Under the pieces are notes generated by a model that did not search any database, was not told the origin of the DNA, and worked only from the letters and a program-made list of their open reading frames with translations. The position numbers and the translations under genes are program-made. A DNA stretch of 64,000 nt from Candidatus Poribacteria bacterium (GTDB lineage: Bacteria; Poribacteria; WGA-4E; WGA-3G), in NCBI GenBank assembly GCA_022821965.1, contig JAJECN010000022.1:372001-436000 (forward strand). The letters are read 5' to 3'. Positions within the stretch are counted from its first letter, which is position 1, and each line of letters begins with the position of its first letter. Shown here in pieces: positions 1,171-12,396 of the stretch.

Positions 1171-1695
1171 TTAGACATTTTCATATTCTTGAATAATATC
1201 CTCAAGTGTCAAGTCAGGATAATATTCACGTTTTCGTTTGATATTGGCAAAATCGTGTTCAATCGGATTGTAATCCGGGGAATAAGGCGGCAGAAATAAT
1301 AGGCTCGCTCCTGTCCCCTCTATGAGTTGGCGCGTCTGAGACGTCTTGTGAAGCATCGCATTATCCAAGATCAGAACGTGATTTGCGGTCAAACGCGGAC
1401 AGACCATCTCGGCTAACCACTCATTGAAATCTGCGGATTTACATCCACCCTGAAGCAGACGCGCAGCGCTGAAAGTCCCTTGAAAACGCGCAGCAAGCAA
1501 GGTCCGAGTCCGAGTGCGTTGACTTGAGATAAGCCCATAGACGGCTTCTCCTTTCGGGGCATACCCGTAACGTCTATGACTTTCGTCTCGGAACCCACTC
1601 TCATCGGCATAAACCACGCATTTGCCAGCCTGCTGGAGTGCCGCGAGGTCTTGGCGATAGGCAGATCGTTTTTTCGGACATCGCTCCTTATACCC
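1171..1695 (-). CDS. IS630 transposase DDE part (orfB)
   Basis: The +1 (or -2) frame after the A9 run reads KTLGYKERCPKKRSAYRQDL and then the catalytic DDE domain. VVYADESGF holds the first Asp, LILDNAMLHK the second, and PPYSPDYNPIEHDFANIK the Glu. The frame is open well upstream of its first Met, which shows that it is translated as a fusion with orfA and not from its own start. All catalytic residues are present, so the element may be active if slippage works. It ends with YENV at the left inverted repeat. Confidence 0.85.
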   Translation of the reverse strand, partial: GYKERCPKKRSAYRQDLAALQQAGKCVVYADESGFRDESHRRYGYAPKGEAVYGLISSQRTRTRTLLAARFQGTFSAARLLQGGCKSADFNEWLAEMVCPRLTANHVLILDNAMLHKTSQTRQLIEGTGASLLFLPPYSPDYNPIEHDFANIKRKREYYPDLTLEDIIQEYENV

Positions 1696-2008
1696 GAGTG
1701 TTTTTTTTTCGCGTGATACCGAGAGTTTTCAAGGCGTAGTAAATGCAAAACTCCGAGACACCAAAATGGCTCGCACGCTCTGCCTGAGTTTCATCTGGGA
1801 AGTCAGCGACATGTTTTTCAAGCGCATGGAGGTCAAGGGTTCTCGGACCCCGAGGACCCGGTTTCTTACGCACCAATGGATCCTCGGCATTCAACCACGT
1901 ATACAGAGTTGCGCGTGCGATGGAAAACTGCCGGCAGGCTTCGGTCTTTTTACCGCCAGCTTCAATGAACGCTAAAACGCGTTTGCGTAAATCTGATGAA
2001 TAAGCCAT
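1688..2008 (-). CDS. IS630 transposase N-terminal part (orfA, HTH)
   Basis: 106 aa starting MAYSSDLRKRVLAFIEAGG, the typical IS630/helix-turn-helix start, followed by a second HTH (ADFPDETQAERASHFGVS). It would bind the terminal repeats. The frame ends shortly after a run of nine A residues (on the coding strand; T run at 1701-1709 of the + strand), where the transposase frame continues one base later. The run is a likely site of programmed ribosomal or transcriptional slippage, as known in other two-frame IS630 members. A plain disabling frameshift is the alternative. Confidence 0.85.
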   Translation of the reverse strand: MAYSSDLRKRVLAFIEAGGKKTEACRQFSIARATLYTWLNAEDPLVRKKPGPRGPRTLDLHALEKHVADFPDETQAERASHFGVSEFCIYYALKTLGITRKKNTRV

Positions 2009-6477: not shown

Positions 6478-8172
6478 TCAATACAGCACATGCACCCGAT
6501 TCTTTCCGCGCACCGTTTCATCTTGCATCGCTATTGGCACCTCAACGATAGCGATTAAGGCACCCTCCGCACTGACTGCAAGTGTATCGTAGGGGAGTTG
6601 TCCTTCTGTGCGGTAGGTGTACAGGTATTTCGCCAAACCGCTGCCCCCCGCTTTCAAATCAAACACCGAAACACCGTGGAGACTCTCATTCGGATCCTGT
6701 GTCCGCTTGGAGACAGACAATACGGCATAACGGTCCATCGCGTCAATACGTAAGCCTTGCGGCATGTTCTCAAGTTTCCACTGCCAACTTTTTTCACCGT
6801 TCCATGAATAGGCAAACAGCGTCATCCCATTGGGGTGTCCCGCCGAAGGTTTTTGCGCGCCTTTTCGGAGATGATAGGGGATGTAGGTATCCCCAGTAAC
6901 AAAGAGTGCTGCTGCATTCGTCGCGTCAATCGTGCCAGAAGTGGCTACAATAGGGATGCCGCTTACCTCCAGTGGTGTTGCCAAATTTTCCTGCCATATC
7001 GGTTCAGGCTTGTTTATGTCGAAAATAAAGGCGCGTCCATCGTCAGTTGCGACGTTGATGAACTCGCCATCGGGGGATAGACTGACACCTCTCCAAAATG
7101 TGACCTGCGCAAAATACTCGCGTAAAGGTTCAATATCCACGTGCCATTTTTCCGTTCCATCTTCTGCATTGAGGACAGTGAGTTTTCCGTTGCCGCTTTC
7201 ATTCGCGGCATTGCCTTGTAAGTTATGCCCGCTATCCGTTACGAGGGCGAGTGTTTTTCCATCACCGCTTACGTCGAACCAGCGTACCACCTTTGGCACA
7301 GCGTGTTCGCGGGTCCATTTCCAAGTGACTTCTCCGGTTTCACCGTCAAATCGATAGAGTTGGGACTTCTTAAGTGGTGTATTGTTTTCTGTCCACGAAT
7401 GCACACTCGCAACCAAAAGGTCTCCGTTCGTCAGGGTGCGCATGCACGCTGGACCGGGGTAGCTTACCCACGCGTAGACGCTATCAGGGTTGCTCGGTGT
7501 AGAGGTTTCAATGTCGTCAGCGGTGCGGTATTTCCAGCGGAGTGTCGGTTTGTCGGTTGTTAGGTCGTAGCAGTAGATAAACCCATCTGCTGCTTGTTCA
7601 CCAATATAAAGGCGTGTATTGTCAGAACTGAATGCCATCCGTCTCACATAACCTTCCGAAATACGGGTTTTCCAAAGGGTCTCACCTGTGAGGGGTTGCA
7701 AAACCGCGAGATGTCCGCTATCTGTCGCTATTGCTAACTTCTCTGTATTAGGTCTACTGCCATGTCCCAAGGCAAGTGCAGTCGGTTTCGCGGGTTGACG
7801 AAGGTTTTCCATCAGCGATAAGAGTCCGTCTAATTCGACGGTACGGATGAGATAAGGTTCTGGCTTCAACGGCGAAGTTGCTGTTGTTACACTGTCATTT
7901 AAGCGAAACTGATAACTTTGGTTCGGTTGCCATGCGAATTGAAGAAGAAAACGGTTCGCGTCAAATTGTTGGACAGTTGGTGTTTCTGCTAACGCCTGTG
8001 TTGTGTCGTTAGACACGGTTGCGACGTTGATTTGGAGATCAACATCCTGTTTATGTTCGGTTTCAAGTACTGCGCCTGTTCTGACCCAAGTAACGTTTAT
8101 GTCAGCCGTCGCAATACCGATAGATAAGACGATGAACAAGCAGAGTAGCGTCAAAGACTGAATTCGTTTCAT
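6478..8172 (-). CDS. Secreted PQQ/WD40-like beta-propeller protein
   Basis: 564 aa. Residues 1-23 form a signal peptide (MKRIQSLTLLCLFIVLSIGI). Residues ~24-110 look like a small beta-sandwich, and the rest is a propeller of PQQ-like repeats (LAVLQPLTGETLWKTRI, YRFDGETGEVTWKW, LTVLNAEDGTEKWHVDI, VATDDGRAFIFDINKPEPIW). No metal or catalytic motif is visible, so it probably binds a ligand or protein at the cell surface or periplasm. It is the last gene of a minus-strand unit behind the cobalamin riboswitch (gaps of ~90 bases). A link to B12 uptake is therefore inference from context, not from sequence. Confidence 0.75.
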   Translation of the reverse strand: MKRIQSLTLLCLFIVLSIGIATADINVTWVRTGAVLETEHKQDVDLQINVATVSNDTTQALAETPTVQQFDANRFLLQFAWQPNQSYQFRLNDSVTTATSPLKPEPYLIRTVELDGLLSLMENLRQPAKPTALALGHGSRPNTEKLAIATDSGHLAVLQPLTGETLWKTRISEGYVRRMAFSSDNTRLYIGEQAADGFIYCYDLTTDKPTLRWKYRTADDIETSTPSNPDSVYAWVSYPGPACMRTLTNGDLLVASVHSWTENNTPLKKSQLYRFDGETGEVTWKWTREHAVPKVVRWFDVSGDGKTLALVTDSGHNLQGNAANESGNGKLTVLNAEDGTEKWHVDIEPLREYFAQVTFWRGVSLSPDGEFINVATDDGRAFIFDINKPEPIWQENLATPLEVSGIPIVATSGTIDATNAAALFVTGDTYIPYHLRKGAQKPSAGHPNGMTLFAYSWNGEKSWQWKLENMPQGLRIDAMDRYAVLSVSKRTQDPNESLHGVSVFDLKAGGSGLAKYLYTYRTEGQLPYDTLAVSAEGALIAIVEVPIAMQDETVRGKNRVHVLY

Positions 8173-8204
8173 TGTAATGTTTCCTTATATTTGAATTGGT
8201 GATT

Positions 8205-8225
8205 TCCCGCGCCAGCGGCGTGGAA
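8205..8225. repeat. Relic of the MITE core repeat
   Basis: The sequence CGCCAGCGGCGTG in this 90-base gap matches the core of the MITE-like elements at 6124-6225 and, less fully, 12980-13098. No terminal repeats are visible here, so it is at most a decayed copy. Confidence 0.3.
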
Positions 8226-8262
8226 GAGTTTTTCGCCAACCAACTGACTACATATTTATGGA

Positions 8263-10224
8263 TTAGTCCGCCACACGCCATAAGCCTTTACCTAACCGTC
8301 CACCGAGAAGCACACCGATAAATGTATAGACGAAACCTTCGATTAAGATTCGGAGGACGATATACCAATCGGCATAAAAAAGCCGATAGAACAGTATAGA
8401 GAGTTGAAAATCGACATAGGTGGAGAGTGCGTCGCAAACGCCTAAGACGACTGCCCATGCCAGCAGGCTGCGCCCTCGGACGCACAGAAATCCTGTTTCC
8501 AATAGAAGAACGCTTGTACCGGTGTAAACGATCGCCATCGGTGTGAAAAGCCCAAACGTGACACCACCGAGAAGTAAACGCACTGCAGAGACAAGTAAGA
8601 TTACACCGCTGCCTTTAACGCGTTTCCGATCCGTAGCCTCCGCATTTTCCGGGTCCCCATTAATGTAGATAAGTAGTGCCGTCAGCAAAGCATAGTAGAG
8701 TGTTTCGTTGATTAAACCGGTTAGAAGCACCGAGCCTGGACCCAAAACGGCACGGATTAAGTTGAGAAACAGCGTTGACGGAACCATCACCGCTACAAAA
8801 ACCGTTGTGCTGAACAGCGCAATCACGATCAGCTGTTTTGTTGTGAAACCGGCGAAAAGCCACTTATGAAGTCGCAGGACGAATGCGAAACCGATGCTAC
8901 TACTGATGATTGCCAACAGACTGACGAGCAGTGCCTGTTGATTTGGGACGATCAGGTGCAGCGGACGTTGTTCACGAAGGATTGTCGCGTCGCTTCCCCA
9001 GACCTTCACTGCGATGTCGCGCACATATTCCCCCGGAATTGCTTGTTCTGGCTGGTTTCCCTGCCGTAAATACACTGGATGAAAGTAGATAGGCAACGGA
9101 ATCTCTGTAACCGTGCCACCCAGCAAGCTCGCAAACGCTACACTCCGATTGGTCCCTCCGTTTGCTGTTTCTGGGGGCGCGAGAAATGAAATAATTTCGC
9201 CACTTTTCGTATCCGTGTTAGTTGATGACACGACTACATGAATCGTTTCTTCGCCTTCGTTGTGAAGTCGGACTGTCTGATAGGTTGTCGGTTCAAATGC
9301 ATTGGTTTGCGGGGTTCGGAGCCAACTGAACAGTGGACGTGGGTAGTAGACAGTATCTTTTCGCTGTTTCAAATCTACTGTGCCTGTCGCATCCGTCGGC
9401 ATATCAATAGATTCTATTGAGAGGTTTTCAGCGATTTCTGAAACGGTTGCGACTCGTAGCTGCACCGTTGCTTGCTGTTCCCATGTTTGTCCTATGTCAG
9501 TTGTGAAATGGACAGTCCCCGAAATCTCTTGTCTATCCGAACGACTTGTCTCGGAGGTTCTCAAAACTAATTCACGGTACCACACCTCCGATGCGACTCG
9601 AAATCTGTCGGTAGTGGAGAGGCAGGTTACAGTGTCAATTGTTTCGATTTTCCAACCTACTGGTAAGTGAACGACGGTTAGGATTGATGGCAGACAAAAT
9701 TCCAGTTCAAAGGTTGTTGGCGTGTTCCCGTTTGTAACAAGAACCGTGGCTGTCATCTCGCTCCCACTTAGAACGAGTGCCTTCTGATCATTTTCTAATG
9801 TATCCGCCGAATCCGCCTGCGTCGCAGCACCGTAGGGGATGGCAATCTCTAAATTGCCTTGTGTGTATGTCCGCGGGGCAGTTATCGTTTGAACGCTGAT
9901 GTTCCCTGTAGACGAGGTCGCTTCAAATTTATAGGTTTCCCCTGCCTGCCATTCAAAATAGAGGGATTCCGTCTGACGAGGTGATACTGGGAAGTTGAGT
10001 TGCGCAACCACTACACCCTCCGAATTAAAAGCATTCAGATGCAGGACGGGTGATGCCGCATCAAATTGCACCTTTGCCCCTAACGAAAAGAACGTCACCT
10101 TCCACGAGATCGGTTCCTCTTTGGGGTCTGAAGTGCAACTGAGCAAAAAAACGAGCAGCGGCACGCCCCATAAGATTTTCTCTATTGCAGATTGATATGG
10201 TGTTCGATTCAGAGCGTGTGTCAT
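8263..10224 (-). CDS. Lipoprotein fused to ECF-S-like membrane domain
   Basis: 653 aa. A signal sequence ends in the lipobox LLSC (Cys30), so the N terminus should be lipid-anchored outside. Residues ~35-425 are beta-rich extracellular domains with no recognised catalytic motif. From ~residue 430 to the end there are about six membrane helices (for example LIVIALFSTTVFVAVM, GLINETLYYALLTALLIYI, GVTFGLFTPMAIVY, GFVYTFIGVLLGG). This pattern recalls substrate-binding S components of ECF vitamin transporters (YkoE-like). No ATPase or EcfT gene is nearby, as is usual for group II ECF systems. The position after a cobalamin-riboswitch-controlled propeller suggests corrinoid or related uptake. ECF membership is a by-eye call; an unrelated membrane protein is possible. 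Confidence 0.6.
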   Translation of the reverse strand: MTHALNRTPYQSAIEKILWGVPLLVFLLSCTSDPKEEPISWKVTFFSLGAKVQFDAASPVLHLNAFNSEGVVVAQLNFPVSPRQTESLYFEWQAGETYKFEATSSTGNISVQTITAPRTYTQGNLEIAIPYGAATQADSADTLENDQKALVLSGSEMTATVLVTNGNTPTTFELEFCLPSILTVVHLPVGWKIETIDTVTCLSTTDRFRVASEVWYRELVLRTSETSRSDRQEISGTVHFTTDIGQTWEQQATVQLRVATVSEIAENLSIESIDMPTDATGTVDLKQRKDTVYYPRPLFSWLRTPQTNAFEPTTYQTVRLHNEGEETIHVVVSSTNTDTKSGEIISFLAPPETANGGTNRSVAFASLLGGTVTEIPLPIYFHPVYLRQGNQPEQAIPGEYVRDIAVKVWGSDATILREQRPLHLIVPNQQALLVSLLAIISSSIGFAFVLRLHKWLFAGFTTKQLIVIALFSTTVFVAVMVPSTLFLNLIRAVLGPGSVLLTGLINETLYYALLTALLIYINGDPENAEATDRKRVKGSGVILLVSAVRLLLGGVTFGLFTPMAIVYTGTSVLLLETGFLCVRGRSLLAWAVVLGVCDALSTYVDFQLSILFYRLFYADWYIVLRILIEGFVYTFIGVLLGGRLGKGLWRVAD

Positions 10225-10313
10225 GCAATTTCATGAAGGTATTGCGCATGCATGGAATTTGTGAAAGGCGAGGTGTTTTTGCTGGAGTGTTTCCCTCGCC
10301 TATGAATGCTAAG

Positions 10314-11669
10314 TTACAGCCCTTGACCTATCAGCACCAGATCAAGGATATTAACAACTTCGTCTCCATTGACATCCGCAAGTATTCCAGCACCCTCGTC
10401 ACCGAGAAAACGGCCTGCGATTATCATATCTTTCATATTGACAAACCCATCGTTGTTGATGTCCGAGCGTCTCGGGACAATCCTTGCGAACCCCAAAATA
10501 GAGCCGCCGGGTCCAACGTGATAGGTTTGTAGGAGAGACGCATCTGCTACATCCATGACGCGAACGAAATCCTGTCCACTACCTGACCAATCGGGTTGGG
10601 TGATGTAGAGATTCCCATCCGGTGCAAAAGTCAGACCGCCACTGATAGGTGCGTCTGCATCGTTACTGAAATTGGTAAGCGTGTCATCTTCGTCGCGGAT
10701 CCAGTCTCGTGCAGCAACATCATAGATGAGCAGCCCTGGGTTTTGCCAGCTGCCTTGGATAAACAACTGTTTTTCTGAATTGAGAGCGAAGGAACCGGGG
10801 GTCAGTTTGAGTTTAACCGTTTCCACCACCTCATCGGTATTAGCGTCAATCAGAACGAGATGCCCCAGGATGTCATTGTAATTTCCCGTTGTTTTGACAA
10901 TGATAGTGGATTCGCCATCAGTGAGGATTCCACTTGCGTTCGTCGGCACTGGAATTGACTTCAGAATGCTGTCCGTCTCTGTATCAATTACTGTAACACT
11001 ACTATCGTAGTAGGTGGTCTTGCGTGCAACAGGATCGTACTCCCATGCGGGATTTGTGACATAGGCTTTGCCGTTGAGAAGCGTGATGCCGGTCGGTTTG
11101 TTGAAGAAACCCATGAGGACCTTCGTCACATTGCGGTTATTGATGTCTATGACATGCACCTCGTGCGCTGCGGCGCAGGTGACGTACATCTTGTTCTCGC
11201 CGACAACAGCGACCTGTTGAGGAGTCGCACCGGCTTGAATCGGAATTTCACCAACGATCTCTCGGTCCTCCAAGTTGACAATAAAGATGTTATCGCCGGA
11301 ACTCGCAGCACCCGTAATGGGTAAATTAAAGGTGGGGATATAAGCGAGGTGTCCGCGAATGGAAAGACCGACTGCTCGCCTTCGATTAAGTGGCTCGGCA
11401 CTGAAATGAAGTATCTCATTGTCAACAGCTCGACGCTCACTCAGTTCCATCAGATTGATGAGTGAGAGTGAGGCGGTGATACCTAAGTCGGGATGCGTCA
11501 ACGCATTTATGACAACTGCGAGGTCTTGAGCCTCTGTTTGTCCAAAGGCTGGACCCATGGTGAGTGTGAAAAGGATTGCGCCTATAAGTAGGAGCAAATA
11601 ACACGAAAAATGTCGCCGAAAGATTTTTCTGGACGCGCTTGCAGGCGATGTCGCTACAATTTTGTTCAT
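10314..11669 (-). CDS. YVTN-type beta-propeller with dockerin-like tail
   Basis: 451 aa from the ATG at 11669, chosen for GGAGG six bases upstream; the longer ORF runs into the riboswitch leader. It has a signal peptide or anchor (YLLLLIGAILFTLTMGPAFG). Next come YncE/YVTN propeller blades (NIFIVNLEDREIVGEIPI, KMYVTCAAAHEVHVIDINN, KAYVTNPAW, VTVIDTETDSILKSIPV). Two dockerin-like EF-hand repeats close the protein (DINNDGFVNMKDMIIAGRFL and ADVNGDEVVNILDLVL, ~residues 395-450). The first gene after the cobalamin riboswitch, it is analogous in fold and context to the Bacteroides B12-capturing surface propeller BtuG. That analogy is inference. Dockerin-like tails in this setting may anchor to surface cohesin-type domains. 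Confidence 0.75.
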   Translation of the reverse strand: MNKIVATSPASASRKIFRRHFSCYLLLLIGAILFTLTMGPAFGQTEAQDLAVVINALTHPDLGITASLSLINLMELSERRAVDNEILHFSAEPLNRRRAVGLSIRGHLAYIPTFNLPITGAASSGDNIFIVNLEDREIVGEIPIQAGATPQQVAVVGENKMYVTCAAAHEVHVIDINNRNVTKVLMGFFNKPTGITLLNGKAYVTNPAWEYDPVARKTTYYDSSVTVIDTETDSILKSIPVPTNASGILTDGESTIIVKTTGNYNDILGHLVLIDANTDEVVETVKLKLTPGSFALNSEKQLFIQGSWQNPGLLIYDVAARDWIRDEDDTLTNFSNDADAPISGGLTFAPDGNLYITQPDWSGSGQDFVRVMDVADASLLQTYHVGPGGSILGFARIVPRRSDINNDGFVNMKDMIIAGRFLGDEGAGILADVNGDEVVNILDLVLIGQGL

Positions 11670-11696
11670 TAAAACCTCCGTAATGAAACAAGAAAC

Positions 11697-11724
11697 CCCT
11701 GCTTTCACGGAAAGACAGGGGGGA
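11697..11724 (-). terminator. Riboswitch expression-platform hairpin
   Basis: On the minus strand, CCCTG-CTTTC and GAAAG-CAGGG form a 10-bp stem with a one-base bulge, followed by the U-rich tract UUUCUUGUUU. The start codon RBS follows directly. This fits a transcription terminator controlled by the upstream cobalamin aptamer. Confidence 0.6.
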
Positions 11725-11849
11725 AGCGACACTCTGTATAAGGCGTATCCTGTAAGTGTGTAAAAGAATTCCATACCGTATATCTATCGGTATTTATATT
11801 TCTGATCTGACAGGATACTGTGCTCTGTTCCACCGCTTTCCCGCGAAAG

Positions 11850-12045
11850 CAGATGCGTGAAACACGACTCAGGCAGGTCTCCTGACTTCCGATCTTGCGT
11901 CCACTGAACCTTCCCATCAGTAAATTGACAGTGGTTTTTTCAGCGGATATTTGTGATCGTTTACAGTGGCGGGGCCGTGGCGGATTCTCACCGCGCTTCC
12001 CTATTCTCCGGCTCTCTCCGGCACCTGAATCGTTCGTTTATTTAA
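11850..12045 (-). promoter_or_regulatory. Cobalamin (AdoCbl) riboswitch aptamer
   Basis: Read on the minus strand, the conserved landmarks appear in order. They are CAGGTGCC (12020-12027), GGTGAGAATCC (11982-11992), CCCCGCCACTGT (11963-11974), GGGAAGG, and the B12 box AGTCAGGAGACCTGCC (11872-11887). These are the standard blocks of RF00174-type aptamers. It lies between its own sigma70 promoter and the YVTN propeller gene and should repress the three-gene unit when B12 is plentiful. Confidence 0.93.
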
Positions 12046-12058
12046 TTGTGATGCATAT

Positions 12059-12087
12059 ATTATATCACGTTTCACTGTTTTTTGCAA
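12059..12087 (-). promoter_or_regulatory. sigma70 promoter of the riboswitch unit
   Basis: On the minus strand, TTGCAA (12082-12087) and TATAAT (12059-12064) are 17 bases apart. The start point falls near 12052, just before the aptamer. It is back to back with the plus-strand promoter at 12113-12141. Confidence 0.7.
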
Positions 12088-12112
12088 AATTTTTTCAATT
12101 AAAATAAAAAAT

Positions 12113-12147: not shown

Positions 12148-12396
12148 TAAGCGTGGGTAAATCCAAAAATTTGGCAGTCATCAACCGTTTTTGAAAAGCG
12201 AGAGAAATGACACTTTTCCGTTCACACTCCAATCTGCATAGCATAGTCAATCATTGGCATTGGTGGCATTCCAATTGCTTACGGAGGAGTGTGCGTTCAA
12301 ACGGATATCTATAGACATGTTACCCCCAACGGGGTTTTATAGAAAGTTGAAGCCTTATGCACACGAATCCGAGCTGCATAAGGTTTTTTGTTTTTA
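12148..12396 (+). ncRNA. Structured RNA: hisI leader or small RNA
   Basis: About 245 bases lie between a consensus promoter and a strong intrinsic terminator, with no ORF of note. A long-range stem pairs TCCGTT-CACACTCC (12217-12230) with GGAGTGTG (12286-12293) and AACGGA (12300-12305), leaving a six-base bulge. Inside, CAA-TTGG can pair with CCAA-TTG. A short CCCC-AAC-GGGG hairpin with TTTT follows (12331-12342 region), then the main terminator. It matches none of the T-box, SRP, RNase P or tmRNA landmarks I know; a 6S-like RNA is possible. Either it is an independent sRNA or it attenuates hisI. Confidence 0.5.
12351..12396 (+). terminator. Intrinsic terminator upstream of hisI
   Basis: CCTTATGCA (12353-12361) and TGCATAAGG (12375-12383) form a perfect 9-bp stem followed by TTTTTTGTTTTT. 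It lies just before the hisI RBS, so hisI expression from the upstream promoter needs read-through. Confidence 0.82.

Follow-up and report, generated by a model that had tools for sequence, protein, structure and literature searches.

In Candidatus Poribacteria, a cobalamin riboswitch precedes three genes that we read as a B12-repressed operon for corrinoid import: the S component carried by the second gene product, S653, would work with an ECF motor and be fed by propellers, in a B12-dependent diderm that appears unable to build the corrin ring. We assign this reading a probability of about 0.84. The argument is built on sequence, namely the regulatory element, the conserved trio, the S-component identity of S653, the motor genes, and the apparent lack of both corrin synthesis and BtuFCD. 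The window, by which we mean the whole 64,000-nucleotide stretch analysed, comes from a Candidatus Poribacteria MAG (G000, 5.69 Mb, 95% complete); Poribacteria are known for sponge symbionts (PMC3909097). The features concerned are as follows.

about 12059-12088, minus strand: promoter-like -35/-10 site 5' of the riboswitch (TTGCAA or TTTGCA, 17-18 nt, TATAAT; 10/12 matches)
11855..12043, minus strand: cobalamin riboswitch aptamer (RF00174; 116.6 bits, E = 1.4e-28; full length, 1-189)
11686..11721, minus strand: predicted intrinsic terminator of the leader, hairpin CCCCTGTCTTTCCGTGAAAGCAGGGG (stem 11721-11696) and then TTTCTTGTTT (T tract 11695-11686)
10314..11669 (revised start), minus strand: propA, secreted YVTN/BtuG-like beta-propeller with C-terminal dockerin, about 451 aa (ORF; Shine-Dalgarno site and ATG 3' of the terminator)
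10317..10466, minus strand: type I dockerin region of propA (PF00404, Dockerin_1, E = 2.3e-6, exceeding the curated cut-off)
8263..10224, minus strand: S653, lipoprotein with predicted Ig-like ectodomain and ECF S component, 653 aa (ORF; lipobox; model; archaeal operon)
8950..10104, minus strand: S653 ectodomain, residues about 41-425, Ig-like beta domains (model secondary structure; Foldseek Ig-repeat matches)
8940-8872, minus strand: S653 extra helix TM0, residues 429-451 (model)
8266..8841, minus strand: predicted S-component domain of S653, residues 462-653, six helices (Foldseek match to YkoE 5edl; profile matches)
6478..8172, minus strand: propB, exported PQQ/BamB-like beta-propeller, 564 aa (PF13360, PQQ_2, E = 5.4e-12)

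The first-pass annotation had placed a B12 riboswitch, with a promoter and a terminator, at the head of three envelope genes. The riboswitch scores above the RF00174 gathering score of 31.5 bits, and it is the sole cobalamin riboswitch found in the 5.7-Mb genome. The leader terminator holds as well: three other families have counterparts at the corresponding position, with different yet paired stem sequences (CCCCTG/CAGGGG, ACCCCAG/CTGGGGT and AGCCAATTTT/AAAATTGGCT), and the leader is therefore most likely a transcription-terminating riboswitch. Of the promoter, the 10/12-match site can be found, but such sites are no commoner in this region than expected by chance (8 seen versus 9.6 in shuffles). 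On the 3' side of the terminator come a Shine-Dalgarno site and then the three minus-strand reading frames propA, S653 and propB, as described earlier. The context of the first start codon (GGAGG-TTTTA-ATG, directly 3' of the terminator) is that of position 11669, where propA most likely begins, rather than at the mechanical ORF start at 11774 that would give 486 aa.

The first-pass annotation had suggested looking for the trio behind riboswitches in related genomes, and it is conserved there. By protein search, S653 is present in 35 of 40 related genomes, with identity falling to 41-43% in another family of the order, and a riboswitch search of the same 40 genomes normally returned one site per genome. 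The arrangement of riboswitch and trio extends over four Poribacteria families. Among the 30 riboswitch loci read in detail, the riboswitch leads directly to propA in 28 and directly to S653 in one, and 23 keep an uninterrupted riboswitch-propA-S653-propB order. In one genome (G026), the unit is split into two loci, S653 with propB and propA by itself, and a separate riboswitch stands at each of them; this speaks for selection maintaining the B12 control of these genes. In two others (G030 and G035, 80% and 88% complete), a riboswitch precedes propA and S653 was not found. A separate arrangement is seen in G037 (L052:1263-5143), where a HEARO RNA (RF02033) and an RRXRR/HNH protein lie 3' of the cobalamin riboswitch, at the place expected for propA, and are followed by a Cas4-Cas1 fusion; an IscB-like element here adjoins the riboswitch.

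Searching the second gene product, S653, directly against Pfam and NCBIfam (hmmscan) and against PDB (phmmer) gave nothing useful. Its lipobox cysteine, Cys30, is found in all 40 Poribacteria members of the S653 alignment and is absent from the archaeal members. The AlphaFold2 model of the full protein (53 sequences, mean pLDDT 81) consists of Ig-like domains, TM0 and a six-helix bundle. A large lipid-anchored ectodomain is fused to the membrane domain. Foldseek with the full-length model returned only Ig-repeat matches such as integrins and was uninformative on the membrane part, which was therefore folded alone together with TM0 (28 sequences, pTM 0.79). The best PDB match of the bundle is YkoE 5edl, with probability 1.00, E = 4.7e-3, 198 columns and TM 0.47/0.52; this is the sole confident match, TmRibU 5kc4 being returned at E 1.8. 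An hmmsearch of PDB with the S-domain sequence profile again placed YkoE first, weakly (E = 0.39), and two divergent family members match the YkoE Pfam family PF09819 at E about 0.02. Fold and sequence profile thus pick the same protein independently; the scores agree, and none is decisive alone.

It is important to note that the best of these Pfam scores, 15.6 bits (E 0.018), lies under the PF09819 gathering threshold of 25.2, and the S domain is best regarded as a distant relative of YkoE and not as a member of its family. YkoE, the closest relative of the membrane domain in fold and sequence profile, is annotated for HMP/thiamine. Of the relatives with which the first-pass annotation had proposed comparing the 653-aa protein, YkoE was matched; CbrT and BtuM were found by the S-domain profile nowhere in PDB up to E = 10, and the substrate can therefore not be read from a characterised B12 relative. 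The predicted topology is that of an S component, with six helices after TM0 and both ends cytoplasmic, and the Lys/Arg residues around the start of the S domain and at the C-terminus are as expected for a cytoplasmic location. The first helix of the S domain shows no evident strict AxxxA motif for EcfT docking; since S components do not universally carry this motif, we attach no weight to the result. Since the similarity to known S components is weak by each of these measures, much of the case is made by operon context, and with the predicted fold and the consistent profiles it leaves the earlier claim, that the C terminus of S653 resembles an ECF S component, well supported.

That context comes from archaea. 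In a homologue scan of about 85,000 genomes, which reaches fairly close relatives only, relatives of S653 were restricted to Poribacteria and to Methanosarcinales and related archaeal MAGs. In 14 Methanosarcinales loci, some of which end at contig ends and one of which has frame breaks, the order is a propB-like propeller, a CobN-like protein (PF02514, 1291 bits), the S653 homologue (about 30% identical, E about 1e-42), a fused EcfA-EcfA, EcfT (CbiQ, 83.6 bits) and an ABC-2 pair. S653 and propB thereby have a direct link to an ECF motor. The propeller common to the Poribacteria trio and the archaeal operon is propB (28-31% identical, E to 1e-70), which, as the third gene, had correctly been called a PQQ-like propeller. 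Counting against the B12 reading, the archaeal operon has a CobN-like neighbour and no riboswitch shown to link it to B12. The ABC-2 ATPase/permease pair that comes after EcfT lies at 10415-11907 in L194 and has counterparts throughout L193-L206.

The first-pass annotation had also pointed to EcfA and EcfT genes elsewhere in the genome as worth looking for, and both are present. EcfT is on contig C9 (4451-5362, minus strand), which also holds the window about 367 kb further on, and the fused EcfA-EcfA is on contig C32 (TIGR04520, 434.8 bits; cut-off 315). Across the Poribacteria set EcfT occurs once per genome in 35 of 40 genomes, is about 40% identical to the archaeal protein, and in two other families stands adjacent or nearly adjacent to EcfAA. 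An association of the S domain with EcfA and EcfT genes exists in both groups: it is operonic in the archaea, while nearly every Poribacteria genome has one orthologue of each motor gene, unlinked to S653. On C32, the fused EcfAA overlaps the end of a gene for a B12-binding radical SAM protein with a DUF4070 domain (L129:8389-10530, minus strand). Such a gene neighbours EcfAA in several other Poribacteria families too, and this neighbour is possibly the reason why the motor has been kept at that site.

In the window genome neither motor gene is beside the trio or under the riboswitch, which would suit a mode in which S653 imports B12 alone and EcfT and EcfAA serve something else; solitary S-like B12 importers do exist, for example BtuM (PMC6072759). 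However, the archaeal operon joins S component, EcfAA and EcfT, and S653 and EcfT are found together throughout the order, and neither is present in the outgroups G038 and G039. The genomes in which one is found without the other (G004, G014, G030, G035, G036 and G037) are mostly incomplete or fragmented. Nor was another general S component found for the motor to serve, as no PF12822 match passed E = 0.001 in any genome except G039. We therefore regard a solo mode as a minor rival and as very unlikely, and favour S653 acting with the ECF motor.

Turning to physiology, CbiC (PF02570) was found in G039 only and in none of the searched genomes of the order, and CobN shows the same distribution. 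B12-binding proteins occur in 40/40 genomes, most of which have frames of about 1230-1250 aa that fit MetH. With the biosynthetic genes missing and B12-binding enzymes present, these genomes look B12-using and unable to make the corrin ring. This bears on the main rival, in which the ECF system takes in Co2+ for corrin synthesis and the propellers bind the metal or a metal chelate. The nearest ECF motor families (CbiQ/CbiO) are annotated for cobalt, the archaeal operon includes a CobN-like chelatase, and elsewhere B12 riboswitches also control cobalt transporters. But cobalt imported by Poribacteria could not become B12 where CbiC and CobN are absent, a 400-aa ectodomain with two propellers suggests a large ligand, and the S domain resembles YkoE, a vitamin S component. 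We consider cobalt import improbable on these grounds, chiefly because the genomes cannot use the metal for corrin, and keep a corrinoid as the putative substrate.

A conventional route also seems to be lacking. No homologue of BtuF or BtuC, the binding protein and the FecCD-type permease of BtuFCD, lies within or beside the trio, and a strong FecCD match is missing from 23 of the 35 S653-bearing genomes. Five riboswitches, three strong FecCD permeases, TonB receptors, CobN and CbiC are present in the class-level outgroup G039, which is without S653 and EcfT; it looks like the conventional BtuB-BtuFCD arrangement, which is probably this outgroup's system. BtuB-BtuFCD would thus share with the trio the function of B12 uptake and differ from it in gene content. 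As for the outer membrane, there is no shortage of TonB-dependent receptors, with 20 plug matches in the window genome, and one of them therefore probably carries the outer-membrane step for B12.

The window genome has one full FecCD system, and it adjoins two HmuY genes. This cluster (G000:C55, L119:2375-9229) comprises a TonB receptor, two HmuY-like proteins, a binding protein, a permease and an ATPase, and a strong FecCD match of this kind is found in only part of the genus. Its TonB receptor matches hemin and B12 receptors about equally. BtuC is the best NCBIfam match of the permease yet stays below the cut-off (266 vs 334 bits), and the HmuY pair points to heme; the system was rejected as a BtuFCD candidate and probably serves heme uptake. 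With heme already served in this way and the trio under a B12 riboswitch in Poribacteria, another minor rival appears weak, namely that the substrate is a different tetrapyrrole or a corrinoid precursor or derivative (heme, cobinamide or degraded corrinoids) and not B12 itself. CobN-like neighbours in archaea speak for it; CobN-like proteins can be tied to metalloporphyrin salvage, as in the case of Bacteroides BtuS (cited in PMC10846266), and an ECF heme importer exists (PMC7299338). We rate this rival, too, as having little chance, and B12 itself stays the favoured cargo.

The propellers would be the capture devices of such an importer. BtuG of Bacteroides is a B12-riboswitch-linked capture protein with femtomolar affinity (PMC6143338), and the suggestion that the first propeller recalls it is borne out by the propA family profile, which matches BtuG1 (8blw_B, 5.5e-13) and the further BtuG entries 8okv (7.5e-8) and 3dsm (1.2e-6), so that BtuG1, BtuG2 and BtuG3 are all recovered (entries 8BLW, 8OKV and 3DSM; PMC10404256). 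The top PDB hit of the profile is a Methanosarcina surface-layer YVTN protein (5.3e-14). YVTN propellers are promiscuous, and that this protein slightly outscores BtuG weakens the argument from similarity. Both propA and BtuG are exported YVTN propellers linked to a B12 riboswitch (PMC6143338, PMC10404256). BtuG, however, is a surface lipoprotein that caps BtuB, whereas propA has a signal peptide and a dockerin, lacks the lipobox and surface-export signal, and has no btuB or other TonB receptor gene in its operon.

The dockerin-like tail described in the first-pass annotation is a type I dockerin by Pfam score, the PDB profile search of the propA family also returned dockerin chains, and most propA members carry such a domain. 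Three relatives have a gene for a cohesin-domain protein (L084:11137-12666, L085:5232-6743 and L086:1-1398) directly behind the dockerin-bearing propA that follows the B12 riboswitch; two of these proteins give sorting-tail matches, as does propA of L081. A chance match was considered for the propA dockerin and rejected, given a score above the Pfam cut-off and the adjoining cohesin gene in three relatives. A real dockerin-cohesin pairing is suggested by these observations; they are not proof of it, because these genomes commonly contain cohesins, the window genome having 15 matches, and propA of families f2 and f3 has no evident dockerin. It is plausible that propA is tethered at the surface by dockerin-cohesin contact.

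These genomes make common use of dockerins, Ig-like domains and propellers as surface modules, and cohesins are frequent in them; on that account the trio could form a surface structure or a signalling unit regulated by B12, with no part in transport and with an S-like fold that is incidental. The complete ECF motor of the archaeal operon, the S-component fold of the S653 bundle and the co-occurrence with EcfT all stand against this, and we give it hardly any weight.

We propose the following mechanism. When B12 is scarce, the riboswitch would let transcription pass the leader terminator. Corrinoid would cross the outer membrane through one of the many TonB receptors, and propA (secreted, BtuG-like and dockerin-tagged) and propB may capture it outside the cell or in the periplasm. 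The lipid anchor and extra helix of S653 would keep it at the inner membrane's outer face, where its Ig-like ectodomain may act as a built-in receptor or docking platform and hand the corrinoid to the C-terminal S component. The S component, which we infer to couple physically with EcfT, would then carry the corrinoid into the cell with the ECF motor, that is, the fused EcfA-EcfA ATPase and EcfT encoded elsewhere.

ECF transporters occur predominantly in Gram-positives, and among characterised ECF systems we know of none whose S component has an extracytoplasmic receptor fused to it. The archaeal CobN-S-EcfAA-EcfT cluster offers an independent, cultivable handle on function, Methanosarcina being amenable to genetics and dependent on corrinoid enzymes. 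ECF B12 transporters such as CbrT, S-component-like B12 importers such as BtuM and B12-capturing propellers such as BtuG are already known. ECF-CbrT of Lactobacillus (PMC5997447) resembles the system described here in having a six-helix S component, a separate EcfA/EcfT motor, a B12 substrate (predicted in our case) and a host without BtuCDF; CbrT is a bare S component in a Gram-positive, whereas S653 adds a lipid-anchored ectodomain of roughly 400 aa and an extra helix, in diderms and archaea. BtuM (PMC6072759) is likewise an S-component-like B12 importer of Gram-negatives without BtuCDF, but it is small and solitary, without an ECF module, and is not matched by the S-domain profile. New here are the S-component family, the lipid-anchored ectodomain fused to it, its deployment in a diderm phylum alongside B12-controlled propellers, and the CobN-bearing version of the archaea; a literature search of open-licence papers found no description of this system.

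Many B12-dependent Gram-negatives without BtuCDF have no known inner-membrane importer (PMC6072759), and one order of sponge-associated and marine bacteria appears to fill this gap with an ECF transporter. An earlier proposal for B12 import in Poribacteria (PMC5087111) invoked a TonB-dependent system without specifying it, and named genes can now be put in its place. More tentatively, and at somewhat less than even odds, the trio may represent a new class of B12 transporter: an S component with a built-in, lipid-anchored periplasmic receptor, supplied by BtuG-like propellers whose dockerin tags dock them on cohesin surface proteins as a cellulosome-like vitamin trap, common to a diderm phylum and to methanogenic archaea, and coupled in the latter to a CobN-like chelatase.

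Two further observations concern the surroundings of the trio in the window. At 12352-12383 (plus strand), a strong hairpin with a T run lies just 5' of the Shine-Dalgarno site of a hisI-like gene (~12412), which stands upstream of trpE- and trpG-like genes; the hairpin looks like a leader terminator or attenuator. At 1171-2008 (minus strand), an IS630-like transposase is present as two overlapping ORFs, probably the outcome of a programmed or accidental frameshift.
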